Shown here: positions 1 through 22,482 of the stretch, one piece after another | Position numbering within the stretch: the stretch's first letter is position 1 | Layout: the number at the start of each line of letters is the position of its first letter | The notes under the pieces: generated by a model | The model's database searches: none | What the model saw: only the letters and a program-made list of their open reading frames with translations | Told to the model about the DNA's origin: nothing | Made by a program: the position numbers and the translations under genes | Virus record (IMG/VR): IMGVR_UViG_3300042691_013689 | Span: 1 to 23,108 of that record | Length of the DNA: 23,108 nucleotides | Reading direction: 5' to 3' (one strand) | Source of the DNA: a virus

Positions 1-3000
1 TATAGTTGCCTTTTGATCCAAAGTTTGACCAAATATATTTCTATATCTTTCGGAAATACTTGCTGTTGTTGCAGAAATGTTTGTTATTAAATTTGTTGAT
101 ACATCAATATCATCTTCTAAATTATCTGTTTCAGATTCGATAACAGTTTCAATATCAAATTCACCATTTATATTTGTAAATTCACTTGGTATTTCTTCAT
201 CAAATCCAACAAAAATTGTTGTCTTTTTTGAATTTGATATATCACCACTAATAACAACTGATGACGATATTTCTGTTGTATCTCTTACAAATTTTTCAGG
301 AGGCAATCCACCGAAATCACGATTGATTTTTACCTTAGACCTTTCAAGTATATTTGGTTCAACTACAACCCCAAGTATTTCATTTGTTCTAACAGGTAAT
401 GTCTGACGTATTTGATCGAAAACACTAAAATCAAATAACGATACCATTCTCAAATAAGCGGTAAAGTCATTTCTAGTTGTATATTTTTTCCAATACTCTT
501 GAGCAAATTTTTTCAATGCAGGGTATTCATCTTTTTTGGTATTCGAGTATTCACCCAAATAATCATCTATAACAGTATAACCGATTGATTCGTATATGTC
601 TTCATTTATTATGTGTTGTGGTGAAAATGCAACCATCAATTTATTAGAATCGATAGAGAATCTATCAAATGCAGTTACAGTTGATGATTCATCCATTAAC
701 AATGCACCTTGTAATGATGCAGAGTCTATTCTTATCTTTTCAGAAAAAGGAGTGTTGTTAGCAACAGTTGCAACTTCCATGTTGTAAACTTCAACTGTTG
801 GTATAAATGAATCACGATTGAACAAATGAAAATATGCATTCTTTGAAGAACTATAAAAAGTATTTTTTGTTTGATCCGGATGGACACTCTTAATACTTGA
901 TGTTGATTCTGCATTAAATGGTTGCCAGAATTTCCACTGACCTTGTAAGTCATAGAAAGAAGATGTTGATGTATTTCCATTGTATGATCTTGCAGCAAGA
1001 ACGTGGTTATCAAATGAAGATGTTATTAGAGATTTTGTCCAATATCTTAATTCAAAAATTGATCCAGATAATGAATAATATGTTTGTTGATTTGAACCAG
1101 ATCCTAAAAATAAATTACCATCTGATGACCAAGCTCTATTGTAGTTACTTTCAGTTGCACCATTTACACTTATACTTGCACTTCTATCTACAACAATTTT
1201 TCCATACTTTTCTGTTTTTAATATGAAATCATAAGTTTGATTTGTGGTTAAGTTATCACTGTTCTGATTTCTACGAATCATTATGTTAAGTGGAATGTCA
1301 TCATACAGATATTCGTCTTTAATAGAAGCAGATTTATAGTTAGTACCATCACCGATATAAAATGTCAAATCACCCTTTTCATCAGATCCGGTTCTATTAA
1401 CAGTTACAAACCAATCAACTCTACTTGAAGTTGTTTCTTTTTGTAATAAGGTTTGAATCTTATTACCTTCATAATCATAAAATTTAGACGGATTCATTTT
1501 CCATCTAAATGTCAAAGTATCTGGAAACTGCCAAGTATTGTTTTCATTGTTTACTCTTTCCCAAGGCACTTTTACATAACTTGATGTTGGTGGTTGCTGT
1601 CTACTTCCAACAAATTCCAAATAATATGTATGTTTTTCCCACTCTGCTCTTGGGATAATACCCAAATCTGCATTATCAGGTCCACCGTATTCTCGTATAC
1701 TTAATAGAGTTTGTGGAATACCATAGGCAGCCAAAAGTGCCTTTATTCCTCTTGAAGTTCCTTTTGATTTATAGATGTACGGTAGATTGTTTAATACCCG
1801 TCTCCAAACCTCTTTGGTTCGTTCTTCTTCACTCTTTGAATAGTTTTTACCTACTGTTGTTCTTCCAGTCCATATCGGCTCGCCACTACCACTTAAACCT
1901 AAAGCATATTCCCAAAGGTCTTTTGTTTTTGTTCCACTTGATAATGTCCAACCTAAATTTCGAGTTACCTCATAAATAAGATCTTGTGATACACCGTCTT
2001 TCGGGTGTTCTAATCGTAAATTCTTTTTTAATATATGGTCAGTGTAATAATACAGAACATCAAAATGTTGAGCCAACATATTAACAAATGTTATTATCTG
2101 ATTATTGTCTGGATTATCATATACATGGTCAGGTAATGCCTTTACAAGTGCAGCAGAATTTGACATATCATAGTCTGTTGCCAAATCTAATATATTGTTA
2201 TACCAATTCTCAACCTCAGTTGATGTTGTTTGATATAAATTAAACTTTCCTTGTCTTGATATTAAATCGTATGTACTTCCGGTTACTTCATATTTTGGAA
2301 ATGGTTTTATTGAAGAAGTTAATTCGGAAGTATATCGTAAACTCGCAGAAGTTTCATAGTACAACCATTTTTCAAACTCATCAAATCCAGATACAACTTT
2401 ATCTCTAAGCATTTTAACTTTTGTCTTATTAGATTCAAGTGATCCAGTGTATACTTCTAAATTCGATAATTGAGTATTGTAGTTTTCTATCAATCGTATT
2501 TTGTAGTAAAAATTTTCAACTCTTTCTTCGGCAGAAGAATAAAATACAAAATTCTTAAATTCAGTAAAATCATAATTCAATGATACATTTGATCCAGATA
2601 CATTTATGTATTTATCTAAAATCTGCTGAGAAGTCTGTACATTAGTTGAAAGTAAATCAGTCCAATTTTTATACTCTGTGGTTCCTGTTATGAATCTATC
2701 ATATTCTACTTCAAAATTTGGACCCTTGATAAATCTTGGTTGTAATCTTTCAAACTCTTTTTCTACTTGAACCGAATCTATGTACGGTTTCATTATCTGA
2801 CTTGAAAGCCAGCACTGATAGTATAAATCAACATCAAATGGTAAAGGTTCTGCTAACTTTACAAAAAAGTATGTAGGGTTTCCATCAGAAGTTACATTTA
2901 TTACATCTACTATATTATTTTCACCAAAGTTCAGAACTATTGGTAGTTTGTATCGAGATCCCCTCATATACTCGACTACAAAATTTGTTAGATTTTCAAT

Positions 3001-3456
3001 AGATTCTAAATCACTTGGATTTGTTAAAGTTAAACGGAGTTCTTTTCTATCAGAAGATAAATCTGAAATGAATAATCTATTTTGATTATCATTTGATCCA
3101 ATTAAATCTCTAAAAAAGTTGTAAACAATTCTATATGGACCAGGAATTAAATTTAATTGTCTTATATGATCATGTATAGGCAGATTAACATATCGTATAG
3201 GTTCGCCGTCTTCATTTACTCTTGGATCAATAGAATAATTTGCATAATATAATGTAGTAAAATAAGCGGAGTTTGGTAAAAATACGTGAAGTTCAACATT
3301 TGTACCAGGAGAAGATGGATCCTCTGGATTGTTTAATGTAGAAAATTTAGGAACAATAATTTTACTGTTCAAATCAGAATAAAGAAATCGTTCACCACGA
3401 ATTGGATCACGTGACCTTAATATGTCTGTTATATTTTTGTATAAAAAATTTGGCAT
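1..3456 (-). CDS. Giant baseplate wedge/tail protein, gp7/gpI-like with LamG-like domain (C-terminus off window)
   Basis: The frame is open from an ATG at 3456 to the left window edge: 1152 codons with no stop, so the C-terminus is missing. Residues about 550-605 contain a segment with the pattern LPYIYKSKGTSRGIKALL followed by a YGIP and a REYGG motif. This resembles the conserved core of phage tail protein I (P2 gpI), the counterpart of T4 baseplate wedge protein gp7. Residues about 635-825 look like a concanavalin-type (LamG) beta sandwich, with alternating beta strands, an FILKTEKYGK strand, a GNLFLGSGS strand and a closing LSGSIFELRYWTKSL strand. The order gp25, gp6, two smaller proteins, then this protein fits a wedge cluster. 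The start is preceded by a weak GTGAAAG. I see the motifs directly; the gp7 equivalence is inferred from position, size and the gpI-like motif. It could instead be a fibre-bearing tail protein. Confidence 0.72.
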   Translation of the reverse strand, partial: MPNFLYKNITDILRSRDPIRGERFLYSDLNSKIIVPKFSTLNNPEDPSSPGTNVELHVFLPNSAYFTTLYYANYSIDPRVNEDGEPIRYVNLPIHDHIRQLNLIPGPYRIVYNFFRDLIGSNDNQNRLFISDLSSDRKELRLTLTNPSDLESIENLTNFVVEYMRGSRYKLPIVLNFGENNIVDVINVTSDGNPTYFFVKLAEPLPFDVDLYYQCWLSSQIMKPYIDSVQVEKEFERLQPRFIKGPNFEVEYDRFITGTTEYKNWTDLLSTNVQTSQQILDKYINVSGSNVSLNYDFTEFKNFVFYSSAEERVENFYYKIRLIENYNTQLSNLEVYTGSLESNKTKVKMLRDKVVSGFDEFEKWLYYETSASLRYTSELTSSIKPFPKYEVTGSTYDLISRQGKFNLYQTTSTEVENWYNNILDLATDYDMSNSAALVKALPDHVYDNPDNNQIITFVNMLAQHFDVLYYYTDHILKKNLRLEHPKDGVSQDLIYEVTRNLGWTLSSGTKTKDLWEYALGLSGSGEPIWTGRTTVGKNYSKSEEERTKEVWRRVLNNLPYIYKSKGTSRGIKALLAAYGIPQTLLSIREYGGPDNADLGIIPRAEWEKHTYYLEFVGSRQQPPTSSYVKVPWERVNNENNTWQFPDTLTFRWKMNPSKFYDYEGNKIQTLLQKETTSSRVDWFVTVNRTGSDEKGDLTFYIGDGTNYKSASIKDEYLYDDIPLNIMIRRNQNSDNLTTNQTYDFILKTEKYGKIVVDRSASISVNGATESNYNRAWSSDGNLFLGSGSNQQTYYSLSGSIFELRYWTKSLITSSFDNHVLAARSYNGNTSTSSFYDLQGQWKFWQPFNAESTSSIKSVHPDQTKNTFYSSSKNAYFHLFNRDSFIPTVEVYNMEVATVANNTPFSEKIRIDSASLQGALLMDESSTVTAFDRFSIDSNKLMVAFSPQHIINEDIYESIGYTVIDDYLGEYSNTKKDEYPALKKFAQEYWKKYTTRNDFTAYLRMVSLFDFSVFDQIRQTLPVRTNEILGVVVEPNILERSKVKINRDFGGLPPEKFVRDTTEISSSVVISGDISNSKKTTIFVGFDEEIPSEFTNINGEFDIETVIESETDNLEDDIDVSTNLITNISATTASISERYRNIFGQTLDQKATI

Positions 3457-3483
3457 ATAAAACTTTCACTTATTAAATTATTA

Positions 3484-8294: not shown

Positions 8295-8300
8295 CTCCTT
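8295..8300 (-). promoter_or_regulatory. Strong Shine-Dalgarno before 142-aa gene
   Basis: AAGGAG, eight bases before the ATG at 8286. It overlaps the TAA stop (8299-8301) of the hydrolase-like gene, so termination there and initiation of the next gene are physically linked. Confidence 0.8.
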
Positions 8301-10935
8301 ATCCAGGTTCTACAATTTGATCATATAAATTATTTTTTAACGTTTTTAATACCTTTTTATCACCACCTTTAAGTGCTTTGTAATAACTATCAACTAAATC
8401 AGTTCTTCTAAATTGTCCGTTCATTGTTGGTTCTATTTTTTGATATTCTGATGTTGGTGTTAGTTTGTGAAATGCACAATGTTGGCCTGGTTTTTTAGTA
8501 TCTCCAAATTTCCATATAAATCCTTTTTGAGAAGCAAACTGACCACCTGCACCTGTAACCGATCCACTTTTTGTATTACCACCAAGTCTCCACATTGATC
8601 CATCTGGATTAAGATAACCACATAATTCTATATGGCTTCCACGTGTAATAATAGAAGTTTCCCAACCTCGTTGACTTAAAAAATGTTCCATTAACTTTTT
8701 ACCCATTTCTGTTAAACCACTTCCATTGTAATGAACACCATTTATGAAATATATTGAAATTGGATTCGGTAAAAGTGATTCATATACTTGAATTGCAATT
8801 TTTTCGGATTTTACACTTTCTTTGTTTTTTGGTTTTCCTTTGACTATAACTGTATTATTAGTTACAGTTTTCTTCTCAAAATGTGTCTTTTTGTAAAAGG
8901 TGTACATTTTATTAAATTCTCTTTGATCACCTTCCCCCGAAGATGGTGATCCCATTTTGTAAAATTCAGGATCAACTTCCCAATTATTTGTTTCAGGATT
9001 TATGAACATGGGTACATTGCCGTATGTGCCATTAGTTTCTTTTGTAATTGGGTTTGGTGTATTTGCAGAATAAGTAATAGTAACTCCATTTGCTACTGAC
9101 CACTTAAATTGTCTTACTGGTTTATATCCAGAATGTTCACAAGCGTGTTTAGCAAACATTCCACACCAATGATGTATTTCTGCCCAATTTGAGTATTGTA
9201 AGTCCGTTCCAATCCCATATTTACCAGTTGGACCAAATCCTGCATTTTCTTTAACCATTCTGTGTTGTTCTGTTTGATTTTCTGCAACATAAGGAACTAC
9301 ATTATTTGGTATACCAACTTCTGGAAAATTCATTATTATTGGATAATCTATCATTTTCAATAAACTTTTATCCGATGGAATATCTACACCAAGAACAGGT
9401 TTTTTAGTCAAACCGCTCCAAACTGCACCAAAATACCATTTTACAGAATGTGTTAATTTAGATTCTACTTTTAACTCATTTTCTTTTAATCCTAAATTTT
9501 CAGTTTTTTGTGCTCGAAATCCCCAATTAGGACCTTTAACTGGAGGTGCTGATGTTAAGTTTATCAAGTGTGATGTTATTCTCATAGATACTGGAACCTC
9601 TGCCTTAGATTCTTGTAAATCTCTCAATTTCGCAGTTGTAAGTGCCTTACTATTTTCAACATTTACAGGTGCACCCTCTGGTGATTGATTTGATTTTTCT
9701 TTCGCTTCAAATTTTTGCTCAGGATCAGTTGGGTTTGTTGCTGGGTTTTCATCATTTGGTGTATCTGTATTTGATGCAGGTGGTTCTCCCAATCCCCAAC
9801 CAACGTATGTATTTCTTGGACTATCATCGGATGAACCATCTGGTTTTTTTAATCGAGAATCAACCAATTTCGATAACCACTCAGCAGCAGTATCTCCACC
9901 ATTTATTGTTACATTTTTTGATGAGTATTTTGTACCATTTATTATCAAATTACCGTCATCTTCAAATGCAATATCACCATCGTAATTAGAATTTGGTGCA
10001 GTTACACCAGATGGTGGTTTAACAACAACGACCATTCCATATTTGGATTCAGGTTTTATCACATATCTAATGGAAGAAACATCTATTTTTTCAGATGGAT
10101 TTTGAGGATTTTTCAAACCTAATGCATCATTAAATTTACTAATCTTTTCTTCATCAGACAAATTAAAATAATCTTTTAGATTAAATGTTGTTGTTCCTAC
10201 TGTAAATGTATCATCTTGCCAAGCAGCATTTTGTTTTGATATATCTGTTTCAGTATCGGAATACTCTGTACCTTTTCTATCGATTGGATATTGAACACCT
10301 TTGTACTCTACATATTTTCCTTTACTACGATTTCTACCCTCTCCAAAAAATGATGGTGGATTAGTACCAGTACCCTCACCGAATTGACCACTTCTATCTC
10401 CACCTGTGTTTTGTTCACCATTATCTGGTGTATTATCTATGAAATTATCATCTTTTGGTGGTTGTTCTTCTCTTCCACCGCCAGTTCCACCACCGGTATT
10501 AGTTCCACCAGTTCCACCACCGGTATTAGTTCCACCAGTTCCACCACCGGTATTAGTTCCACCAGTTCCACCACCGGTATTAGTTCCACCACCAGTTCCA
10601 CCACCGGTATTAGTTCCACCGCCAGTTACACCACCGGAGGTACTACCGAAAAGATTTGTAACAAAATCCGCAATAGCTAAATCTGGATTTGAAGATTGTA
10701 CAGTAGTATTTCCAGATCGTGTTTGATTACCAGAACCACCTGTTTGTGTACCACCAGATTGATTTCTTCTATGTCCACCGTCTTTGTCTGAACGGTTCTT
10801 TGTTGAATCATCTAATGTATCTACATCAGTTGTCTCCTTTTTTCTATTATCTCTAGCTCTAGTATTTAATGAATTTCTCGTGGTTTTATCACGAGGTGCT
10901 TCATCTTGTTCTATGTCATCTACTGTTCTTGGCAT
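8299..10935 (-). CDS. Tail-associated CHAP-like Cys/His hydrolase with Gly/Thr repeat linker
   Basis: An 878-residue protein in several parts. Residues 1-90 are polar, charged and probably disordered. Residues 101-154 are an almost pure Gly/Thr/Asn repeat. A beta-rich middle (about 205-360) follows, then a Pro/Asn linker. The C-terminal part (about 545-830) resembles CHAP/NlpC-P60-type peptidoglycan hydrolases: HHWCGMFAKHACEHSG (Cys591), then GSHIELCGYL (His768), then MWRLGGNTKSGSV (GGN at 785-787). The spacing is unusual: about 175 residues separate the candidate Cys and His, so an insertion domain sits inside the fold. The family match is by motif only. Being in the baseplate block and next to a gp5-like spike that lacks a lysozyme domain, it is a good candidate for the virion enzyme that opens the cell wall. 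Its TAA stop overlaps the ribosome site of the next gene. Confidence 0.78.
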   Translation of the reverse strand: MPRTVDDIEQDEAPRDKTTRNSLNTRARDNRKKETTDVDTLDDSTKNRSDKDGGHRRNQSGGTQTGGSGNQTRSGNTTVQSSNPDLAIADFVTNLFGSTSGGVTGGGTNTGGGTGGGTNTGGGTGGTNTGGGTGGTNTGGGTGGTNTGGGTGGGREEQPPKDDNFIDNTPDNGEQNTGGDRSGQFGEGTGTNPPSFFGEGRNRSKGKYVEYKGVQYPIDRKGTEYSDTETDISKQNAAWQDDTFTVGTTTFNLKDYFNLSDEEKISKFNDALGLKNPQNPSEKIDVSSIRYVIKPESKYGMVVVVKPPSGVTAPNSNYDGDIAFEDDGNLIINGTKYSSKNVTINGGDTAAEWLSKLVDSRLKKPDGSSDDSPRNTYVGWGLGEPPASNTDTPNDENPATNPTDPEQKFEAKEKSNQSPEGAPVNVENSKALTTAKLRDLQESKAEVPVSMRITSHLINLTSAPPVKGPNWGFRAQKTENLGLKENELKVESKLTHSVKWYFGAVWSGLTKKPVLGVDIPSDKSLLKMIDYPIIMNFPEVGIPNNVVPYVAENQTEQHRMVKENAGFGPTGKYGIGTDLQYSNWAEIHHWCGMFAKHACEHSGYKPVRQFKWSVANGVTITYSANTPNPITKETNGTYGNVPMFINPETNNWEVDPEFYKMGSPSSGEGDQREFNKMYTFYKKTHFEKKTVTNNTVIVKGKPKNKESVKSEKIAIQVYESLLPNPISIYFINGVHYNGSGLTEMGKKLMEHFLSQRGWETSIITRGSHIELCGYLNPDGSMWRLGGNTKSGSVTGAGGQFASQKGFIWKFGDTKKPGQHCAFHKLTPTSEYQKIEPTMNGQFRRTDLVDSYYKALKGGDKKVLKTLKNNLYDQIVEPG
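10473..10643. repeat. Six-unit 27/30-bp tandem repeat encoding Gly/Thr linker
   Basis: ACCGG marks recur at 10492, 10519, 10546, 10573, 10603 and 10633, giving unit lengths of 27, 27, 27, 30 and 30 bases. The first copies are almost identical at the base level and the last unit (10633) is diverged. All unit lengths are multiples of three, so changes in copy number keep the reading frame. On the minus strand it encodes GGGTGGTNT-type units at residues 101-154 of the 878-residue hydrolase-like protein. Confidence 0.95.
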
Positions 10936-10963: not shown

Positions 10964-13735
10964 TCACCAAGCTATACCAACCGTTACTGGTCTACCGCTT
11001 CCCGCATATTTTTTACCATTTGCAAAAAATTGTCTTGATGCACTACCATCAGAAACACCCATATTTTTTACATTTCCTTTATAGTAATTGAAAACAGCAG
11101 TTGCAAGAGTACCTGGATCGGGTATGGATGTTGTTCCTGCAAACCAAACTCCATTTTTAGTCACTCCTATAAATGATGTTCCACTATCAAGTCCTAATTT
11201 ATCCAACTGTTCTGGTGTGTAAGTGGAAACTTTTCCATTATCAATAACAAGAGCAGAACCCGGTGCAGAGGATTTTATTCCCTTTGCAGTATTTACTGCC
11301 TTATTTGCGTCAACTTTCGTACCTCCTCCGTCAGTGTATATGGAATTACCACGACCTAATTGAGGACCATTGGCACCAATATAGAACATTGCTGCATATT
11401 TCCGAGCTGCCTCAGCGGTCTTTGCACCATAATTAAGACCGTTTACCATAAATGTACCAGTTGGTTGTCCCCAACCCCATCCAGAATCACCCCTTTCAAA
11501 CATACTCCAATTTATGTAGTTTTTAAGATTAGGGAATTGTTGATCCCAACTCCTAAATGGTTTACTAAATGGACTAGGTCTTCCTTGTGCATATTTTGCA
11601 ACCCATGTATTATTGTAACTATTTGTTCCAGGTTCACCTATTGGTCTGAATGCTTCAAATTCCCATTGAGTTGCACCATCAGAGTTTGTATATTTACCTG
11701 CAATTTTGTAAATTATTGATAAAGTAGATGGATTGGGTATTTGTGTGAATACTATTTTTCCACCATCTAATGAAATCATATTTCCAGATACACTAGCATT
11801 AAAATTAACATTTGCACCAGGTGTCTCGGATTTTGTGAATACTGTGTTAATATCATAAGTTTTATCTTTCCATATTCCTTCACTTGTAATAAAATCACCA
11901 TCTATTTTTACAATACGATTTGTTGCATCTTCTTCAAATCCACCACCTATTTTGAAACGGTCTTTACCAATACTTTGATTTGTAAGTTTTTTAGTTCCTT
12001 TATTAGTAGAACAATCAAAATTCCCATATACTTGTTTTGGGGCAAAAGATAATGATGTCAGTGATAAACCACCGGCTTCAAAAGTTCCAATTTCAAATTC
12101 CGCCATACTTGCAGGAAATACAGTTATACCAACGTTACCCCTTATCCAATAATCGCCGGGTTTACCAGTTTTTGCATCCTTTACAGGTCTTGGTATTCCA
12201 TTTAATGATGTTAATTCATTATTTGAACAATCAAATCTAGTTACACCAGTTGAAGTAACTACACCTAAACCGGTTAAACTTGTAATTTTATTACCAGCAC
12301 AATTAAATCCGCCTGGACCAAATGTTGTGATTCCATTGCCATCTAATGATGTTAAAGAACATCCTGAAACATCGTAGATAAATTCATTTTGACTTTTATT
12401 TGAATCGGTTATTCCTCTTATTATTTTTGGTCCACCAACTAATGTTGTTAAACTTTTATTATCACTTGCAATAAATCTACCAACCTCTTGTGGTCCACCA
12501 GCGAGTGTTGTTAAATTATTTTTTGAACAATCAAAAGTACCAGTAACAGTTTTTGGAGAATTTGCTAATGTTGTCAGTGTTACCTTTTGACAATTAAAGT
12601 TGCCGTTTATTTTACCGAAAGGTATTGTAAACTTTCCATTTTCAATCAATCTAACTGAATCTTTTCTATCAGGAACATTTATTTGAACATCACCATCTAT
12701 ACTAACAGAACCATCTGTTTCTATTGTAATTGTTGCAGTATCACTGATTCTTAATTGTGGTGCCTTATCAGTTGATTTTTTCGGTTTACCATTTTTATCA
12801 TATTCAACTTTACCGTCTTTAACAATCCAACCACGCATTATGTTTATCTTTTCAGATAAAGAAGATGTATCGGTTTCTTTTTTTACATCATCTGGTGTTT
12901 TATTACCATCCGAACCTGCATTTGGATCAGACGTATCTTCTTCTCTGTCTGGAAGACCTTCTTTATTTTCTTCTGATGTTTTTGTTTCTACTAATCCCCA
13001 TGAATCCATTATAGCATTTGCATCGGAATCACCTTTTAACTGTTCACGCCAATACTTTAATGCAGATGAATTATCAAATTCAAACAAAACTTGTAATGCA
13101 GAATACTTTACACCCAAAACTGTTATGTATCCAGTTCTATCAAATATGAATGAATTTTCTGCACCTGCTATTTTTATTATTGCTTCAAATTTTGCAGGAA
13201 CTGCACCGTTTTGTCTTTCTGATGTATAGTATAGTTTTTGAGCTGTTATATTTTTGATGTCAGAAGAAGTGCCCTCTTTTGGTATAGAATCATCAGCAGT
13301 TCCCCCACCACCTTGAAGTCCAAACTTTGCACCAGGTGGTGATAGTTTTCTTTCTGCTTGTCTTATTACTTTCTTGGTTTCATCTATTGGTGCAAATCCT
13401 AAGAATACAGGTGGTTCTTGGTCATAATCATAAAGTGCCTCACCACCAGTTTTTTCAATTTCAAAGTATTCCATTGGTACTTGATGGTCTGAAATGTATA
13501 TTGGATTTACTAATTTTGTTTCGTAATTTGGATTTTCTTTTTTCTTTTTAATTTCCTTAATAGAATCAGGTGTGAAGTATTTTTCATTTTTTTCCAAATA
13601 CACACCCATTCTTGCCAATGCACGCAAAAAGTATGTACCTTCTTCTCCAGGTTTGTGTATATCTCCACTAGCATACGCATATCGGTATGTTAGTTTTTTA
13701 GTTAATCCAAGATCTATTCTTTCTTTGTCTGTCAT
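10964..13735 (-). CDS. Leucine-rich-type repeat tail protein with phosphodiester-glycosidase-like C-terminus
   Basis: 923 residues. After an N-terminal domain (1-130) and an acidic linker (about 250-295) comes a repeat region at about 377-580. Its units have the phage/BspA-style pattern FDCSxNxLTSLxG, at 379 (FNC), 401 (FDC), 421 (FIA), 477 (FNC), 501 (FDC) and 573 (FDC), with degenerate units between, at roughly 22-24-residue spacing. These fold as short leucine-rich-type solenoids used in binding. The last 160 residues are different: ALVIDNGKVS (828-837), SFIGVTKNGVWFAG (854-867), NMGVSDGSASRQF (891-903) and RPVTVGIAW (915-923) follow the order of motifs in NAGPA/phosphodiester glycosidase domains (G.t.dG, N.DG.gS, RpV). 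The glycosidase reading is by pattern only. A receptor-binding or surface-polysaccharide-degrading tail protein is the best inference. Confidence 0.75.
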   Translation of the reverse strand: MTDKERIDLGLTKKLTYRYAYASGDIHKPGEEGTYFLRALARMGVYLEKNEKYFTPDSIKEIKKKKENPNYETKLVNPIYISDHQVPMEYFEIEKTGGEALYDYDQEPPVFLGFAPIDETKKVIRQAERKLSPPGAKFGLQGGGGTADDSIPKEGTSSDIKNITAQKLYYTSERQNGAVPAKFEAIIKIAGAENSFIFDRTGYITVLGVKYSALQVLFEFDNSSALKYWREQLKGDSDANAIMDSWGLVETKTSEENKEGLPDREEDTSDPNAGSDGNKTPDDVKKETDTSSLSEKINIMRGWIVKDGKVEYDKNGKPKKSTDKAPQLRISDTATITIETDGSVSIDGDVQINVPDRKDSVRLIENGKFTIPFGKINGNFNCQKVTLTTLANSPKTVTGTFDCSKNNLTTLAGGPQEVGRFIASDNKSLTTLVGGPKIIRGITDSNKSQNEFIYDVSGCSLTSLDGNGITTFGPGGFNCAGNKITSLTGLGVVTSTGVTRFDCSNNELTSLNGIPRPVKDAKTGKPGDYWIRGNVGITVFPASMAEFEIGTFEAGGLSLTSLSFAPKQVYGNFDCSTNKGTKKLTNQSIGKDRFKIGGGFEEDATNRIVKIDGDFITSEGIWKDKTYDINTVFTKSETPGANVNFNASVSGNMISLDGGKIVFTQIPNPSTLSIIYKIAGKYTNSDGATQWEFEAFRPIGEPGTNSYNNTWVAKYAQGRPSPFSKPFRSWDQQFPNLKNYINWSMFERGDSGWGWGQPTGTFMVNGLNYGAKTAEAARKYAAMFYIGANGPQLGRGNSIYTDGGGTKVDANKAVNTAKGIKSSAPGSALVIDNGKVSTYTPEQLDKLGLDSGTSFIGVTKNGVWFAGTTSIPDPGTLATAVFNYYKGNVKNMGVSDGSASRQFFANGKKYAGSGRPVTVGIAW

Positions 13736-16776: not shown

Positions 16777-18272
16777 TATAGTGGTCCTCCACCATCAGAA
16801 TCACCACCAGGAATTATAGATGCACCATAGTCAAATTTTGGATCAGTTTCACCTAATATCTCGTCTAAGATTCTAACCTTTTCTTTTTCCAAGTCAGACA
16901 TTTCTTGAACTAATGTTAATGCATCTTGTTCAACTAATGCTTCTTCTTCTGTTTCTACCAATACTCTTGAACTATCACCAACTACTGCGTATGAACTTTC
17001 ACTTATAGGTTCCTCTGCCTCAGAAACTTCTTTCTCAGAAGGACCACCTGCCTTTTCATTCACAAAAGCAAGTTGACTTGGTAAATCTTTTATAGCACTT
17101 TTCAATTCATTCAAATGTGAATATGCAGTAGAAAAATTTGCAACATTTATAGGAACACCAGAAGGTCCAGTTCCAGTAGGATGTGTCTGTTCTGTTATTG
17201 CCTTAGTTATATTCATTAAAACTTCACACAAATTATTCAACCAATTCATAGTTCTTTTACCCAAAAGAATTGGTTCTATTGCATTCATTCCAAGACTTAT
17301 TTTTTGAGAAGATTCTATCTCTACAACTTGTCTACCATCCAATGATATTCCTTTCTCAGAAGAAAATCCAATACCTTCTTTACTAAAACCAATCAACTCT
17401 TGTTTACGAGAATTGAAAACAATTCTATCAGATGCTATCATTACAGCATTTCCACCATATTCATTTTTTGTAAATAGGTTTATACTTTTATCTGTAATTG
17501 ATGGTGTGTATGTAGAAGCTGGTTCAAATTTTACATATTGTCCTGATGTCATCCATATTGTAGAATCATCAGTATCTATACTTTCAAGGATAAATTCATT
17601 TCTTGGAAGTTTATCTGGATTTGTACCGTTTGATATTATTAAGATTGGATTTCCGGTTGCACCCAAGCCCTTTTTCCACGTTGGAACTTGTGGGTACTTT
17701 CTTCTTTCATCTATTGTTGATCCAAATCGTATAGATTGTCCCCATCTACCTTCAAGTATTATATCACCAGAATATGGTTGAATTGGATAAACGTCTTTTC
17801 TTTCAACAAAGATTGGATCTATTGGATAATCGGATTGTACACTTGATTTTGCAGAGTGAGTCAAACCGTCTCTTGCCGATTCTCTTGATTGTGCATCACC
17901 GGTACTATAATTACTTAACCAATGTGTCAATCCAGGAAGACCATTGTGGTGAATGGATGATTGTATAGAAACTGGATTTGAATAGTAGTATTCTTGTGAG
18001 ACGGCACCAGCACTTGCATGCGGCGATGGTGCCTTTGTCACAAGTATTACTTCGCCTCTAATTGGGATATTTTTTATATTTACATCGAGCGCCCTTGCAC
18101 GGATAACATCTTTTTTGTTGTGTCCAGATGCACCCGCATATCTACACAATACGGTATAGAGTGCGGTTTTATCTAAACCTTCAAAATCAACATCTAAAAC
18201 TTCAGCAGGAAACCATTCTCTAGGAAAACCATCAAGAATTGTTACCTGCGGATTAAAGGGTAGGCCGCTCAA
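16776..18272 (-). CDS. 5: gp5-like baseplate central spike / hub OB-fold protein, TTG start
   Basis: 498 residues. Residues about 20-100 look like an OB-fold (FPAEVLDVDF start, a cluster of strands, GEVILVTKAP). Residues 164-186 hold a motif common in phage spike proteins (GDIILEGRWGQSIRFGS). Residues about 270-340 show short repeated strands (AVMIASDRIVF, IGFSSEKGISL, VVEIESSQKISLG), which fit a gp5C/VgrG-type triple-stranded beta-helix. A helix, a HPTGTGPSGVP turn and a long acidic C-terminal helical tail follow. No lysozyme domain like that of T4 gp5 is visible. It would form the membrane-piercing tip under the tail tube. The start is TTG: GAGGAG lies seven bases upstream and there is no ATG alternative. 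It overlaps the upstream gene by 20 bases. Confidence 0.75.
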   Translation of the reverse strand: MSGLPFNPQVTILDGFPREWFPAEVLDVDFEGLDKTALYTVLCRYAGASGHNKKDVIRARALDVNIKNIPIRGEVILVTKAPSPHASAGAVSQEYYYSNPVSIQSSIHHNGLPGLTHWLSNYSTGDAQSRESARDGLTHSAKSSVQSDYPIDPIFVERKDVYPIQPYSGDIILEGRWGQSIRFGSTIDERRKYPQVPTWKKGLGATGNPILIISNGTNPDKLPRNEFILESIDTDDSTIWMTSGQYVKFEPASTYTPSITDKSINLFTKNEYGGNAVMIASDRIVFNSRKQELIGFSKEGIGFSSEKGISLDGRQVVEIESSQKISLGMNAIEPILLGKRTMNWLNNLCEVLMNITKAITEQTHPTGTGPSGVPINVANFSTAYSHLNELKSAIKDLPSQLAFVNEKAGGPSEKEVSEAEEPISESSYAVVGDSSRVLVETEEEALVEQDALTLVQEMSDLEKEKVRILDEILGETDPKFDYGASIIPGGDSDGGGPL

Positions 18273-18615
18273 TGTTATTCTCCTCTTGATTCTCTTTTAT
18301 TTCTTGAATACCTTCTAATAAGGCCTGTTTTTCTTCGTCTGTCAAGAATGAGGAGGATTCTTCACCAGTGTTAGACATAGCACGTTGTATAACCGCAGCC
18401 AATTTAACTAAATGTTCATCATTCTTAACACCGACTTCCATGAAATCTTTTATAGCAGGAACTAAAATTGCAGCATCACTTATGTTATTCAACATAGGTT
18501 TTAAGTCAGCAATAAGTAGATTTATCTGACGATCTTTCTTCTTCTGATTGTCATAGATGTCCTTTAACAAATCAGAGAATTTTTTATTTCCAAAAATTTC
18601 TTCATTTAGATTCAT
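18253..18615 (-). CDS. Small helical hypothetical protein
   Basis: 120 residues, soluble, predicted almost all helical, with no signal peptide. It opens with FSDLLKDIYDNQKKKDRQI, continues with a hydrophobic helix pair (DLKPMLNNISDAAILVPAIKDF is shortened here to its start and end) and ends in an acidic helix rich in Glu and Gln. Function unknown. It lies between the late sigma factor and the spike gene, starts 11 bases after the sigma stop, and its end overlaps the spike start by 20 bases. No strong ribosome site is visible before its ATG, so it may depend on translation of the gene before it. It could be a transcription co-factor or a small baseplate factor; the sequence does not decide. 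Confidence 0.75.
   Translation of the reverse strand: MNLNEEIFGNKKFSDLLKDIYDNQKKKDRQINLLIADLKPMLNNISDAAILVPAIKDFMEVGVKNDEHLVKLAAVIQRAMSNTGEESSSFLTDEEKQALLEGIQEIKENQEENNIERPTL
18280..18285 (-). promoter_or_regulatory. Ribosome binding site deciding TTG start of gp5-like spike
   Basis: GAGGAG on the minus strand with a seven-base spacer to the TTG at 18272, inside the preceding gene. No ATG in frame lies near, so the TTG is the best start. Confidence 0.8.
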
Positions 18616-18626
18616 ACGTATAAATA

Positions 18627-19361
18627 TCAGTTGTTCATAATATATTGAATTTCATACCAATTCATTTTTTCTAAATTTATACCGTTCTTGTACTGTAAAA
18701 ACATTTTTGAGTATATCGTTTTAATCTTGTTGATAACACTTGTAATGTACTGTGAATTTACACCAGTTCTTTCTCTAACCAATATGTATATCGCTTTCTT
18801 ATTGTAATTTTCTATATTTTCTCTCGTCTTAAACAGATATAAAATAGAATCGGCAACTTGAACATCCCTTTGTTTAGTAAAGAAAAGTGGTAAATGTTTC
18901 TCAACAACATTTACAAAAATATCAATAAAATCTTTCTTTTCTTCGATAGATTCATGTCTAATTTTTTCATTAACTATATTTCTTTCTAAATCTATCGCAT
19001 CTATGTTTTGACTTCTTTTGAAGTGATAATAGTTTTTATTATTCTCTGCAATAAGATAATTTTTAGCAACAATCGAAAAATATGAAAAAGCCTTACCATT
19101 TTCTGCCTTATATTTAGTAATTTTTTCATGTAAAAAAGAAATCACTTCATGTTTGACATCCTCATGTGATACATCAAAGTTATAGAACTTAAATCTATGT
19201 ATCATAATTTCAGCAAGTTTGTAAAATGCAGGATGAATTTTTTGTGTGTATATCAAATTTCTTTGAAACTCATCTTCCATTGTGTTGTACAATACTATTG
19301 CATCTTCTGTTTCTTTGGTAAAGTAAACATTAGGTTTTTTAGGACTTCGTTTTTGCTTCAT
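18627..19361 (-). CDS. 55: gp55-like late-transcription RNA polymerase sigma factor
   Basis: 244 residues (T4 gp55 is 185). The centre has the sigma region 2 layout seen in T4-like late sigma factors: LAEIMIHRFKFYNF (49-62), HEDVKHEVISFLHEKITKY (66-84), then a Phe-rich FSYFSIVAKNYLIAENNK (92-109), which matches the region that binds core polymerase and the -10 element. Residues 188-215 (AIYILVRERTGVNSQYITSV) resemble a helix-turn-helix. T4 gp55 instead ends in a short hydrophobic/acidic clamp-binding tail, and I do not see one here. It would redirect host RNA polymerase to late genes, which fits its place just before the tail block. The ATG overlaps the preceding stop as ATGA (19358-19361); AAGGA lies about nine bases upstream. 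Confidence 0.85.
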   Translation of the reverse strand: MKQKRSPKKPNVYFTKETEDAIVLYNTMEDEFQRNLIYTQKIHPAFYKLAEIMIHRFKFYNFDVSHEDVKHEVISFLHEKITKYKAENGKAFSYFSIVAKNYLIAENNKNYYHFKRSQNIDAIDLERNIVNEKIRHESIEEKKDFIDIFVNVVEKHLPLFFTKQRDVQVADSILYLFKTRENIENYNKKAIYILVRERTGVNSQYITSVINKIKTIYSKMFLQYKNGINLEKMNWYEIQYIMNN

Positions 19362-19729
19362 ATGTAATAATCCTTCTGAAATGAAACATCTGCAGGTTTC
19401 TGATTTTGAATAATACTTCTTTTTTCATCATCCAATGGTTCTTCACCAAAGTAAACGGAAATATCATTTACAATATCTTTCATTTCTTTGAAGAAATATC
19501 CAGTTTCGTCATCGGCCTCAAACGAACCAATCCTATCTAATTGTCTTAAATAGGATTGTTGTGACCGTATTCTATTTCGTAATTCAGTTAAAAACTTTTC
19601 ATTCTCTAATAGAGCATCAACAGTATCTTGTGCCATATCATCTAATTTTTCAAACTTTTTTGTTAAGTTTACATTGACAAAAATAGATATGGTTAAACAT
19701 ATTGATAATACAATTATTGTCAATAACAT
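19358..19729 (-). CDS. Small membrane-anchored coiled-coil protein
   Basis: 123 residues. Residues 2-23 (MLLTIIVLSICLTISIFVNV) form one N-terminal membrane segment, followed directly by Lys-Lys and a charged helix, so the bulk probably lies in the cytoplasm. Residues 25-65 look like a coiled coil, and a conserved-looking acidic segment follows (FEADDETGYFFKEMKDI, about 74-90). Function unknown; I have no firm family. It begins one base after the ClpP stop, with AGAGG inside the clpP end as ribosome site, and its stop overlaps the sigma factor start. The tight packing with the protease and the 362-residue membrane protein suggests they are co-expressed. Confidence 0.8.
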   Translation of the reverse strand: MLLTIIVLSICLTISIFVNVNLTKKFEKLDDMAQDTVDALLENEKFLTELRNRIRSQQSYLRQLDRIGSFEADDETGYFFKEMKDIVNDISVYFGEEPLDDEKRSIIQNQKPADVSFQKDYYI

Positions 19730-19730
19730 A

Positions 19731-20390
19731 TCAACCTCTCTTATGTTTTGGTGGAATTATTGAATCTATAACACCAAGATTTAATGCATCCGTTGGTGTG
19801 ATGTAATAATCTTTTATAGTAACATTCTTCCAAAATTCTGTATCTTTGTTTGAATTTGATTTTAAGATTTCCAATAGTATTTCTTCTAATTTTTCCATAT
19901 GTTGAACATTAGCTTTCATATCAGAAGATTTTCCGTAAATATCAGAACTAATTTCATGGAACATGATAGTTGAGTATTGTGAAGCCAAACGAAGACCGGT
20001 TCCTGCACAAAGAATAAGAGCAGCTGCAGACATTGCCCTACCTCTACAAATTGTATTAACCTTTACATCAAGACTTTGCATATAATCAATAATACCAAGT
20101 GCCTCATAAACAGAACCACCATCTGAATTGATGATTAAATTTATTGGATCATTTTTATGTTCTTCTGATCTCATGTGAAGAATTGCACGAATACGAGTGA
20201 TAATATCGTACAAAGAACCATCCATGATTTCACCAAATAACAAAATGGAAGATGCCTCTACATCAATACCATAATCCATCTGTGTTGTTGCTTCTTTCCA
20301 TCTAACTGGAATATCGTTTTCTTTTTCTTTTGATTTATTGTTTACTTGATTTTCTTCAACAATTTCGTCACCATCATAAAAATCGTTCAT
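19731..20390 (-). CDS. clpP: ClpP-like serine protease
   Basis: 219 residues, the size of ClpP peptidases plus an N-terminal charged extension of about 35 residues. The full triad is visible: Ser121 in GRAMSAAALIL, His145 in STIMFHEIS, Asp194 in TIKDYYITPTDA. The INSDGGSV segment at 87-94 provides the oxyanion glycines, and the C-terminal LNLGVIDSII matches the family. ClpP forms a barrel that degrades substrates passed to it by an ATPase (ClpX or ClpA). No such ATPase is encoded in the window, so it would use a host partner or work alone. Some phages use ClpP-fold enzymes as prohead proteases; no head genes are here to support that. CAGGAG stands seven bases before the ATG. Confidence 0.92.
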   Translation of the reverse strand: MNDFYDGDEIVEENQVNNKSKEKENDIPVRWKEATTQMDYGIDVEASSILLFGEIMDGSLYDIITRIRAILHMRSEEHKNDPINLIINSDGGSVYEALGIIDYMQSLDVKVNTICRGRAMSAAALILCAGTGLRLASQYSTIMFHEISSDIYGKSSDMKANVQHMEKLEEILLEILKSNSNKDTEFWKNVTIKDYYITPTDALNLGVIDSIIPPKHKRG

Positions 20391-20426
20391 AACAGAACTC
20401 CTGGTTAAAATACAACAATGACATCA

Positions 20427-21515
20427 CTATAAAGATATTCCTCGCCTATATCCAAAATCTGGTTTAGGTTTTTCTTCATAGAATGCCCTTTCAATTTCAT
20501 TTTGTTCTAATATACTAATTTCTTCCGTAACTGCCAAGGGTTTTTTTTCTTTTTTATTTTTTTGTCTTTTAGTAGCAGTAACATCATCAGTAATTTTGAT
20601 ATTTTCTATCGATTTATTTTTTTCTTTTGGTTTCAAAACATCTACAACATCTTCTAAAACTTTTTCTTTTTTAATCGGTGGTGGAGAATCATCGTCTTCT
20701 GGTGGAATTTGTTTTTCATTTTCTTTGTGTTTCAAATGATTAGCAGCAATTACTAAACTAACTGCCAAAGGATCGAATACCGAAACTAATATCAGTATAA
20801 ACCAATTAACAATAATATCCATAGGTGCACCTGTTAATCTACTCAAATAAAGTAGTGGTCCTATTTCTGATGTAAATGTTGAATTTTCAAGAACCAATTT
20901 TTCTTGTTCCAATTTAGCAACACTATCAGATAAACCAATAGATTTTTGATTTAGTTCCGAAATTTCTTTGTTTAAGGTTTGAGTTGAATTATCAACAGAT
21001 TGGATATTTTTTTGTAAACCCTTTGTACCCTTCTTCTGTGTTAGTTGGTTATTCAGAGAATTTTCTTGTGACAATCTTAATTGATCATAAGATGATATTC
21101 TCTCTCCCTTTTGTTTTACGAGTGTATCTATTTGTGATTTCTGTTCGAGGAAAATTTCTTTTTTCTTAACAATCAATGCAATTTTGTTTTGTGTTTCGTA
21201 TATTTCTTTTGCAGTTTCTTGATAAGAATTGGTTAGATACCCATAAACACCAACCGATGTTAATATCATAAGAATAACAGCGGAAGACATTAGATATACT
21301 TTGAAAGCAGTTTTGAGAGTTTTGTAGTGGTCATGTAGGAATGTTATTACCACCAATTTAGAAAATTCTAGCATACCGGCCATACCAACTATTGACCAAG
21401 AACCACCAGAAAATAGTTTGGATATACCGTAAACAGAATAATATCCCGAAAATACTGCCAATCCGATAGCACAAAACCAGATTAGATTTTTCAGAGAGAA
21501 TAATTTATTTGACAT
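20427..21515 (-). CDS. Multi-pass membrane protein with central coiled coil
   Basis: 362 residues. Membrane segments are visible at about 10-33, 39-60 and 72-95, then a long coiled coil (about 98-212, rich in Gln, Lys, Glu and Leu), a fourth segment at about 232-258, and a basic, Pro/Asp/Lys-rich tail to the end. This three-plus-one layout recalls the DUF4407 type of membrane protein, but I cannot confirm membership. No enzyme motif is seen. The protein probably sits in the host inner membrane. No clear ribosome site precedes the ATG, and the 61-base gap upstream carries inverted repeats. It lies 36 bases before clpP, with a second membrane-anchored coiled-coil protein after it, so a membrane function shared by the three is possible. 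Confidence 0.85.
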   Translation of the reverse strand: MSNKLFSLKNLIWFCAIGLAVFSGYYSVYGISKLFSGGSWSIVGMAGMLEFSKLVVITFLHDHYKTLKTAFKVYLMSSAVILMILTSVGVYGYLTNSYQETAKEIYETQNKIALIVKKKEIFLEQKSQIDTLVKQKGERISSYDQLRLSQENSLNNQLTQKKGTKGLQKNIQSVDNSTQTLNKEISELNQKSIGLSDSVAKLEQEKLVLENSTFTSEIGPLLYLSRLTGAPMDIIVNWFILILVSVFDPLAVSLVIAANHLKHKENEKQIPPEDDDSPPPIKKEKVLEDVVDVLKPKEKNKSIENIKITDDVTATKRQKNKKEKKPLAVTEEISILEQNEIERAFYEEKPKPDFGYRRGISL

Positions 21516-21576: not shown

Positions 21577-22482
21577 TTAGATTCCGTATTCTGTTAGATA
21601 TTGTTTAAGTGCCAATTCTTTTGCTTTACATTCCAACATAATATCAACATCATGTCCGTATGTATTGATTTTCTCTAATATGTAATCAGCGTGTGCTTGT
21701 GGTTTTTCTTTTGTATTACCGGTTTCTTTTAATCTTGAAGAAGAATAGTGAACAACTGGTGTAATACCTTCTGGCCATGTTGATATTGCAAGTTCAAGGG
21801 CTTGTTGTTCAGTTAAATCGCCTGTGCAGAATTGGTGGTGATGATAGTCAAATACGATAGGAATACCAACACATTCATGTATTTTCATAAGGTCTTTAAC
21901 TGAATACATATTCGGTTTGTCATCATTTTCAATGGTCATTCTTGAACGGACACTATGCGATAGTAATTGAAAGTTTTGACACCAACGGTCAAGTGAAGCA
22001 TTCTTGTCACCATAAACGCCATTACAATGTATGTTGATTTTGTTGTATGGTGTATGCGATAATCCCATCATATCAAATACCCTACCATGTAGTTCCAAAT
22101 CGATTATTGTATTCTTTACAACATCTGGATTTGGTGAACATAGAACATTAAATGGACCAGGATGACATGATAGACGGACACCATTTTCATTTGCATACTC
22201 ACCGATTCGTTTGAGAACAATTTTTATTTTATCAATATCTTTGAGTTGTTCCAAGTCATACTCAGAACCCCAAGGAAATACATTGGAAGATGTACGGAAG
22301 AAGTAAATACCGTTTTGAACATTCCATTTGATAATTCGTTCCATATCAACCACATTCAGATATGCAAGTTCGGAACAATAGTCTAAACCTTTTTGTAGAA
22401 ATGTTTTCTTAATCATGGAACGGTTGGTGGTGATTTTATCTTTTGATAAAGTCATGTTGATGCAGGCATATCCGAGTTTCAT
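21577..22482 (-). CDS. uvsE: UV damage endonuclease (UvdE/UvsE family)
   Basis: 301 residues, the usual length for bacterial UvdE, a metal-dependent TIM-barrel nuclease that cuts 5' to UV photoproducts and starts alternative excision repair. Family motifs are in order: MKLGYACINMTL at the start (Tyr5, Asn9), RTSSNVFPW (63-71), LSCHPGPF (His107), INIHCNGVYGDK (His152), MTIENDD (Glu185), IVFDYHHHQF (Asp212, His214/215), PVVHYSSSR (His245), HADYI (His264) and IMLECKAKE (Glu284). All expected metal ligands seem present, so it should be active. The ATG is chosen because the protein then begins exactly at the first strand, although no ribosome site is clear. It repairs phage or host DNA in sunlit settings, by inference. 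No related repair gene is adjacent. Confidence 0.93.
   Translation of the reverse strand: MKLGYACINMTLSKDKITTNRSMIKKTFLQKGLDYCSELAYLNVVDMERIIKWNVQNGIYFFRTSSNVFPWGSEYDLEQLKDIDKIKIVLKRIGEYANENGVRLSCHPGPFNVLCSPNPDVVKNTIIDLELHGRVFDMMGLSHTPYNKINIHCNGVYGDKNASLDRWCQNFQLLSHSVRSRMTIENDDKPNMYSVKDLMKIHECVGIPIVFDYHHHQFCTGDLTEQQALELAISTWPEGITPVVHYSSSRLKETGNTKEKPQAHADYILEKINTYGHDVDIMLECKAKELALKQYLTEYGI

Follow-up and report, generated by a model that had tools for sequence, protein, structure and literature searches.

We analysed a 23,108-nucleotide stretch of viral DNA (IMG/VR record IMGVR_UViG_3300042691_013689, positions 1 to 23,108), a fragment that we refer to as the window, in which a four-segment membrane protein, here named TM4, and a serine peptidase with the ClpP fold are encoded next to each other. 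The phage ClpP and TM4 probably act jointly at the cell membrane. We tentatively propose that in T4-like phages the two make up a membrane-linked peptidase that acts independently of an ATPase, and that the small coiled-coil protein encoded after ClpP (the coil protein) belongs with the weakly sigma-like gene that follows it. The proposal is built on the co-occurrence of TM4 and ClpP, a motif carried by both proteins, an intact catalytic triad in ClpP, an altered cleft at the site where Clp ATPases dock, and the finding that three large relatives carrying this ClpP yielded no Clp ATPase. The features concerned are as follows.

20427..21515, minus strand: TM4, four-segment membrane protein, 362 amino acids (from the open reading frame list, hydropathy and relatives)
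20472..20483, minus strand: FYEE motif in the TM4 tail, residues 345-348
19731..20390, minus strand: ClpP-fold serine peptidase, 219 amino acids, triad S121/H145/D194, altered docking cleft with R116 and S137
20370..20381, minus strand: FYDG motif at the ClpP N-terminus, residues 4-7, predicted to be disordered

The coordinates of the open reading frames leave 36 bases between TM4 and ClpP and 1 base between ClpP and the coil gene, in agreement with the original prediction made for this DNA. The same gene order and strand recur in relatives, so the row is not a chance arrangement. The prediction had also described the parts accurately: TM4 has four hydrophobic segments and a long helix-rich stretch, the coil protein has a single hydrophobic segment (residues 2-20), and the window, searched as a 23,108-base fragment, gave no match to the Clp ATPase domain AAA_2 (PF07724).

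The active site and docking pocket of the phage ClpP

The phage protein matched PF00574 (MEROPS family S14) at 5e-32 and 111.7 bits (gathering score 20.2). Residues S121, H145 and D194 align with S111, H136 and D185 of the Escherichia coli enzyme, and this triad was invariant in all 141 distinct relatives, a set from which E. coli ClpP and six phage ClpPs used for comparison had been removed. The structural model (predicted local distance difference test score, pLDDT, 82) aligned with ClpP from Staphylococcus aureus over 181 residues (Z 25.7, root-mean-square deviation 2.3). Fold and triad are intact, in line with the apparently active ClpP of the original prediction. Sequence identity was 24-30% to the solved ClpPs listed, and 24-27% between the phage subfamily and E. 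coli ClpP. The protein scored under every NCBIfam ClpP cut-off listed (TIGR00493, 90.4 of 308.6 bits; NF001368, 107.2 of 249), and also under the Pfam cut-offs of NfeD1b/SDH-type peptidases (PF25145, 20.7 of 40 bits; PF01972, 15.4 of 31.3 bits).

Opening of a ClpP ring is usually the work of AAA+ motors, or of drugs that occupy the pocket in which those motors dock. This hydrophobic pocket, the H site for IGF loops, is occupied by Clp ATPases and acyldepsipeptides, and we took its residues from the available text of PMC6853987, with further background from that of PMC9035409. In E. coli numbering, M106 is replaced by Arg and L128 by Ser in 141 of 141 relatives, Y74 by Asn, Thr or Ser, likewise in 141 of 141, and F96 by Ser, Thr, Asn or Ala in 137 of 141. 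The Arg/Ser pair was absent from the six other phage ClpPs compared, though some of these also depart from the usual pocket. Judged by these residues, the phage ClpP lacks the hydrophobic pocket of a subunit of an ATP-dependent Clp protease. It is like bacterial ClpP in its fold, its Ser-His-Asp triad and its handle-helix region, and unlike it in the docking pocket and in the N-terminal motif described below. The axial-loop residues R36 and E40 were not used because the local alignment is unsure, and V58, L62 and E67 were omitted likewise. A conserved Arg-Gly at the C-terminus of ClpP in the clade of the window was also left out of the evidence, as that stretch coincides in part with the probable ribosome-binding site for the coil protein.

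A Clp ATPase dedicated to this ClpP and encoded elsewhere in the genome, which the original prediction had named as a finding that would count against it, was not found in three large ClpP-bearing relatives (190, 177 and 137 kb). The ClpB_D2-small domain (PF10431) was absent from all four records searched. Matches to AAA_2 in three relatives were rejected as Clp ATPases, that of L147 being AAA_5/MoxR-like by scan and the other two being judged by eye to be of the same kind.

Co-occurrence of TM4 and ClpP

The neighbourhoods of ClpP were compared in two scans seeded with this protein (75 loci, and the best 80 of 508), and fragmentary proteins, identical proteins and loci with too little visible flank were removed before counting. 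Among distinct ClpPs with sufficient flanking sequence, TM4 was encoded upstream in every case (29 of 29 in one scan and 39 of 39 in the other, together 68 of 68). The coil gene followed ClpP in 47 of 47 and 41 of 42 cases. When TM4 was used as the seed, ClpP lay downstream in 48 of 48 near relatives and in 2 of 38 genome contigs. A different picture emerged when the coil protein was the seed (best 80 of 404): the sigma-like gene adjoined the coil gene in 65 of 65 loci, and ClpP was upstream in only 11 of 31. Consistent with this, Flavobacterium phage immuto carries the coil and sigma-like genes together and TM4 elsewhere, and no ClpP was found in it. The DDE motif of the coil protein is invariant, and is kept in phages whose locus lacks this ClpP. 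The coil protein thus pairs with the sigma-like gene rather than with ClpP, and the ClpP of this subfamily is seen only where TM4 is. The original prediction, which had grouped all three proteins into one membrane-linked unit, had proposed as a check that the genes be conserved together; around this ClpP they do stay together. Because of the 65 of 65 and 11 of 31 counts, however, the coil protein is not supported as a third member of a unit. What stands of that grouping is the link between TM4 and ClpP, through their gene order and the motif that they share.

The genes flanking the proposed pair are the following.

19358..19729, minus strand: single-pass coil protein, 123 amino acids, with a D..G.F..DDE.G motif
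18627..19361, minus strand: weakly sigma-like neighbour gene, outside the proposed pair
18253..18615, minus strand: conserved 120-amino-acid neighbour, function unassigned, in the same block and outside the proposed pair
21577..22482, minus strand: uvdE, ultraviolet (UV) endonuclease, the upstream neighbour against which block synteny was gauged; not part of the proposed pair

The coil and sigma-like genes overlap by 4 bases (19361-18627 for the latter), and the block continues into the sigma-like gene; in the window it extends on to baseplate genes. The sigma-like gene product matched TIGR02937 at E 0.0034, below the cut-off, a weak sigma-70 match. It did not resemble the T4 late sigma factor gp55 (hhalign probability 4.7%), and a sequence search of the PDB gave nothing. 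As for uvdE (PF03851, 3e-60), this DNA-repair gene is an unexpected member of a stable block beside structural genes.

Some relatives carry additional genes at the locus. Between TM4 and ClpP, 54 of 75 relatives encode a small protein that contains Cys and matches no Pfam family (for example L001 19511-19906 and L040 4209-4595); in L146 it adjoins a MoxR-like ATPase. In two deeper relatives (L065 11860-13012 and L070 6216-7298), GroES (Cpn10) and an HD-domain-like protein are inserted between ClpP and the coil protein. In L185, which has no ClpP, a protein that by eye resembles a peptide deformylase (11491-12318) fills part of the ClpP slot.

A terminal motif shared by ClpP and TM4

A short motif, Φ-Y-[DEGNK]-[ED], is common to the N-terminus of ClpP (FYDG in the window) and the tail of TM4 (FYEE). 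At the ClpP-scan loci in which the TM4 tail was visible, it was present in 88 of 88 ClpPs, with 7.0 obtained from shuffled sequences, and in 87 of 88 TM4 tails, with 11.7 from shuffles. Over all loci, 122 of 132 distinct pairs, representing 24 ClpP clusters, had both motifs. The regular expression varied slightly among these and the following counts. In TM4 tails with neither ClpP nor the coil gene nearby, the motif occurred in 13 of 107 versus 9.8 expected, which is near chance. It was absent from seven other ClpPs (E. coli and six phages) and was not enriched at the ends of the CXXC, HD, GroES, coil, sigma-like, MoxR or Hsp20 proteins. In two large relatives with 198 and 135 open reading frames, the first 15 residues of all proteins gave 2 and 2 occurrences versus 1.3 and 0.8 expected, and the last 20 residues 2 and 3 versus 2.5 and 1.9, numbers that include ClpP and TM4 themselves. 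Both motifs are situated in segments mostly modelled with pLDDT below 50.

The membrane protein TM4

Hydrophobic 19-residue windows of TM4 peak at residues 5-29, 42-60, 73-91 and 239-257, and an AlphaFold2 model (mean pLDDT 65) contains a helix-rich stretch at 69-215, between segments 3 and 4. Hydropathy, loop charge and the positive-inside rule suggest a topology with four membrane segments, the coiled coil outside and the tail inside; this tail, of about 100 residues, is predicted to be cytoplasmic and disordered. Three charged residues within predicted membrane helices are strongly conserved among 304 distinct relatives: D248 in all 304, K53 in 297 (one substitution and six gaps) and E50 in 290 (six Asp and eight gaps).

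Two scans recovered at least 592 and at least 596 TM4 relatives from 600 candidate stretches each, the best 80 being retained from either scan, and TM4 also occurred at 52 loci in genome contigs, many of which are possibly phage contigs. As TM4 is far commoner than ClpP, it must also have a role independent of ClpP. TM4 had no Pfam, NCBIfam or convincing PHROG match, and its model had no match in the PDB at E≤0.001. A structure search with the model gave eight matches at E≤0.001 to unnamed or uncharacterised viral proteins, from which we conclude nothing, the model being poor; a sequence search of the PDB returned coiled-coil noise.

Proposed mechanism

Two like peptides on two neighbouring proteins suggest one receptor. 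The most economical candidate for the receptor of the ΦY-acidic peptide would be the apical cleft of the ClpP ring itself: in this subfamily the site where the hydrophobic IGF loop of ClpX or ClpA usually binds bears an invariant Arg and an invariant Ser, to which a peptide with aromatic and acidic residues would be well matched. We infer the following topology, binding and activation, and guess at the substrate. TM4 would span the inner membrane, the coiled coil facing outwards and the disordered, motif-bearing tail reaching into the cytoplasm. The N-terminus of ClpP would occupy the protein's own cleft until displaced by TM4 tails, which would tether the ring at the membrane and open it. The opened ring might then digest peptides or loosely folded proteins near the membrane without a Clp ATPase. 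In this scheme the cleft has switched from hydrophobic to arginine-bearing, the TM4 tails replace the IGF loops of AAA+ motors in docking, tethering and gating, and the ClpP N-terminus serves as a competing lid; taken in full detail it is a possibility that we regard as doubtful.

If true, ClpP would here be tethered to the membrane and regulated with no ATPase involved. This would be a motor-free way to control ClpP, in a family whose examined members all have the altered pocket and whose neighbouring gene encodes a possible ligand in the membrane. It would provide peptide ligands for the ClpP docking pocket, and a first functional handle on TM4, a widespread phage membrane protein that recurs beside Clp and chaperone genes.

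Clp and chaperone genes near TM4 outside the ClpP clade

In Salicola phage SCTP-2 the genes after TM4 encode ClpX, a small S21-like protein and ClpS. In all, S21 and ClpS genes come after TM4 at four loci (L158 9158-11046, L285 11185-13671, L277 10298-12582 and L279 10316-12607), three of which (L285, L277 and L279) also encode Hsp20; ClpX is present in SCTP-2 and L285. A 671-amino-acid, two-domain Clp-type ATPase, ClpC/ClpA-like by eye, is encoded no more than 1 kb past TM4 in L170 (12053-14068) and L187 (12102-14117). TM4 with chaperone and protease genes is thus a recurring neighbourhood in phages outside the ClpP clade. The loci of SCTP-2, L285, L277 and L279 resemble that of the window in that Clp or chaperone genes accompany a membrane protein of the TM4 family, and differ in that an ATPase or adaptor replaces ClpP and in that no coil or sigma-like neighbour was detected.

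Distances were evaluated by whole-record Pfam searches of 37 records chosen by length, in comparison with random placement. Clp ATPases were within 4 kb of TM4 in 3 of 10 cases versus 0.51 expected (p 0.010), and Hsp20 in 6 of 16 versus 2.05 expected (p 0.009); ribonucleotide reductase, used as a control, was that close in 0 of 15 cases versus 1.47 expected. These p-values are uncorrected and optimistic because the 37 records are interrelated. An earlier chaperone distance test was discarded as biased, its marker proteins having been picked from TM4 neighbourhoods.

Evidence against the proposal and alternative explanations

A number of results weigh against a TM4-ClpP peptidase. The main contrary one is that the motif is kept in relatives without ClpP: 8 of 16 TM4s with the coil gene but no ClpP nearby retain it (1.4 expected), and the 16 records concerned, many of them fragments, hold a single ClpP (in the L521 record) that by eye is of another lineage. 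Unless these phages have only recently lost ClpP, the motif may thus serve more than this ClpP. It is also short, and was spotted post hoc in alignments. ClpP was downstream of TM4 in 0 of 38 cases in a Mosig-like group and in 22 of 60 in a wider scan. Synteny is general in this block: around ClpP we counted uvdE in 45 of 48 cases, the sigma-like gene in 86 of 86, the coil gene in 87 of 88 and the 120-amino-acid gene in 84 of 84, and a conserved gene order is weak evidence by itself when uvdE, on the other side of TM4, is almost as stable a neighbour. The TM4 model is poor, with pLDDT 65, and GroES did not cluster with TM4 (within 4 kb in 1 of 14 cases versus 1.21 expected).

The retained motif favours an arrangement in which the ΦY-acidic peptides of ClpP and TM4 both bind a third protein, of phage or host, and do not bind each other. 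The motifs of the ClpP-less TM4s would then be explained by something other than ClpP. Furthermore, two small proteins encoded beside TM4 in ClpP-less relatives (L194 7234-7485 and L205 3045-3284) end in FSLYGE, the TM4/ClpP motif, at their C-terminus. On the other hand, no general hub code was visible in the genome-wide counts from two relatives or at the ends of the seven protein families, and a hub would not account for the altered, invariant cleft of ClpP. We regard such a hub as unlikely.

The two genes might also be no more than neighbours in a stable block, with ClpP working alone, for instance by degrading peptides of the phage or its host. The constancy of the whole block agrees with this, as does the occurrence of TM4 without ClpP in most of the TM4 family. 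Such an explanation does not account for a terminal motif shared by ClpP and TM4 only, nor for the Clp ATPases and ClpS found near TM4 in phages without this ClpP, and we consider it improbable.

We attach a distinctly low probability to the idea that TM4 is a lysis or envelope protein whose turnover is controlled by ClpP, setting the timing of lysis. Relatives of TM4 are found near a glucosaminidase and GH108 (Mosig), a cell-wall hydrolase (L277) and a holin/endolysin (immuto), and the membrane-embedded charges E50, K53 and D248 are nearly invariant; however, no holin or spanin family match to TM4 was convincing, and no lysis gene was identified beside TM4 in the clade of the window.

ClpP-related proteins cleave capsid or scaffold proteins in many phages. 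The top PHROG match of the window ClpP was in fact the head maturation protease family phrog_94 (2.9e-34), and the protein resembles this family and the ClpP-related head maturation proteases of NF045542 in fold and active site. Its match to NF045542 (6.9e-25) reached 87.9 bits, under the cut-off of 120, and the clpP gene is situated in a baseplate-side block. In addition, a T4 gp21-type S77 prohead protease is encoded elsewhere in 4 of 4 relatives searched, three of which have this ClpP, so that a role of ClpP as head protease is not needed; we judge it very improbable.

The original prediction had suggested that the phage ClpP recruits host ClpX (or ClpA/ClpC), with the two coiled-coil proteins delivering membrane substrates; the intact fold and triad and the lack of any Clp ATPase found in relatives would fit, but as the core of the docking pocket is altered in 141 of 141 relatives and the coil protein pairs with another gene, recruitment in the usual style is unsupported and appears unlikely, and this version as a whole has very little chance of being correct.

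Relation to other phage Clp proteins

Literature searches for a grouping of TM4, ClpP and the coil protein returned no description that we recognised. In jumbo phages, ClpP and ClpS have been discussed as possible agents against host proteins or as assembly aids, according to the available text of PMC7824862 and PMC6102473 (the latter on Atu_ph07). These phages resemble those considered here in having Clp parts short of a full set and in a scattered distribution, and differ in that the available text of the two papers mentions no membrane partner, terminal motif or altered pocket. The ClpP of Atu_ph07 is about 64% identical to E. coli ClpP, compared with 24-27% for the phage subfamily described here. 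In Atu_ph07, ClpX is encoded near topoisomerase genes, as in SCTP-2, and its listed neighbours are short proteins.

Two further observations concern the window itself. No long closed minus-strand open reading frame is listed for positions 1-3480, which probably hold a gene running off the end of the record. Positions 8299-10935 encode an 878-amino-acid protein with a glycine/threonine/asparagine repeat run (TNTGGGTGG) close to its N-terminus.

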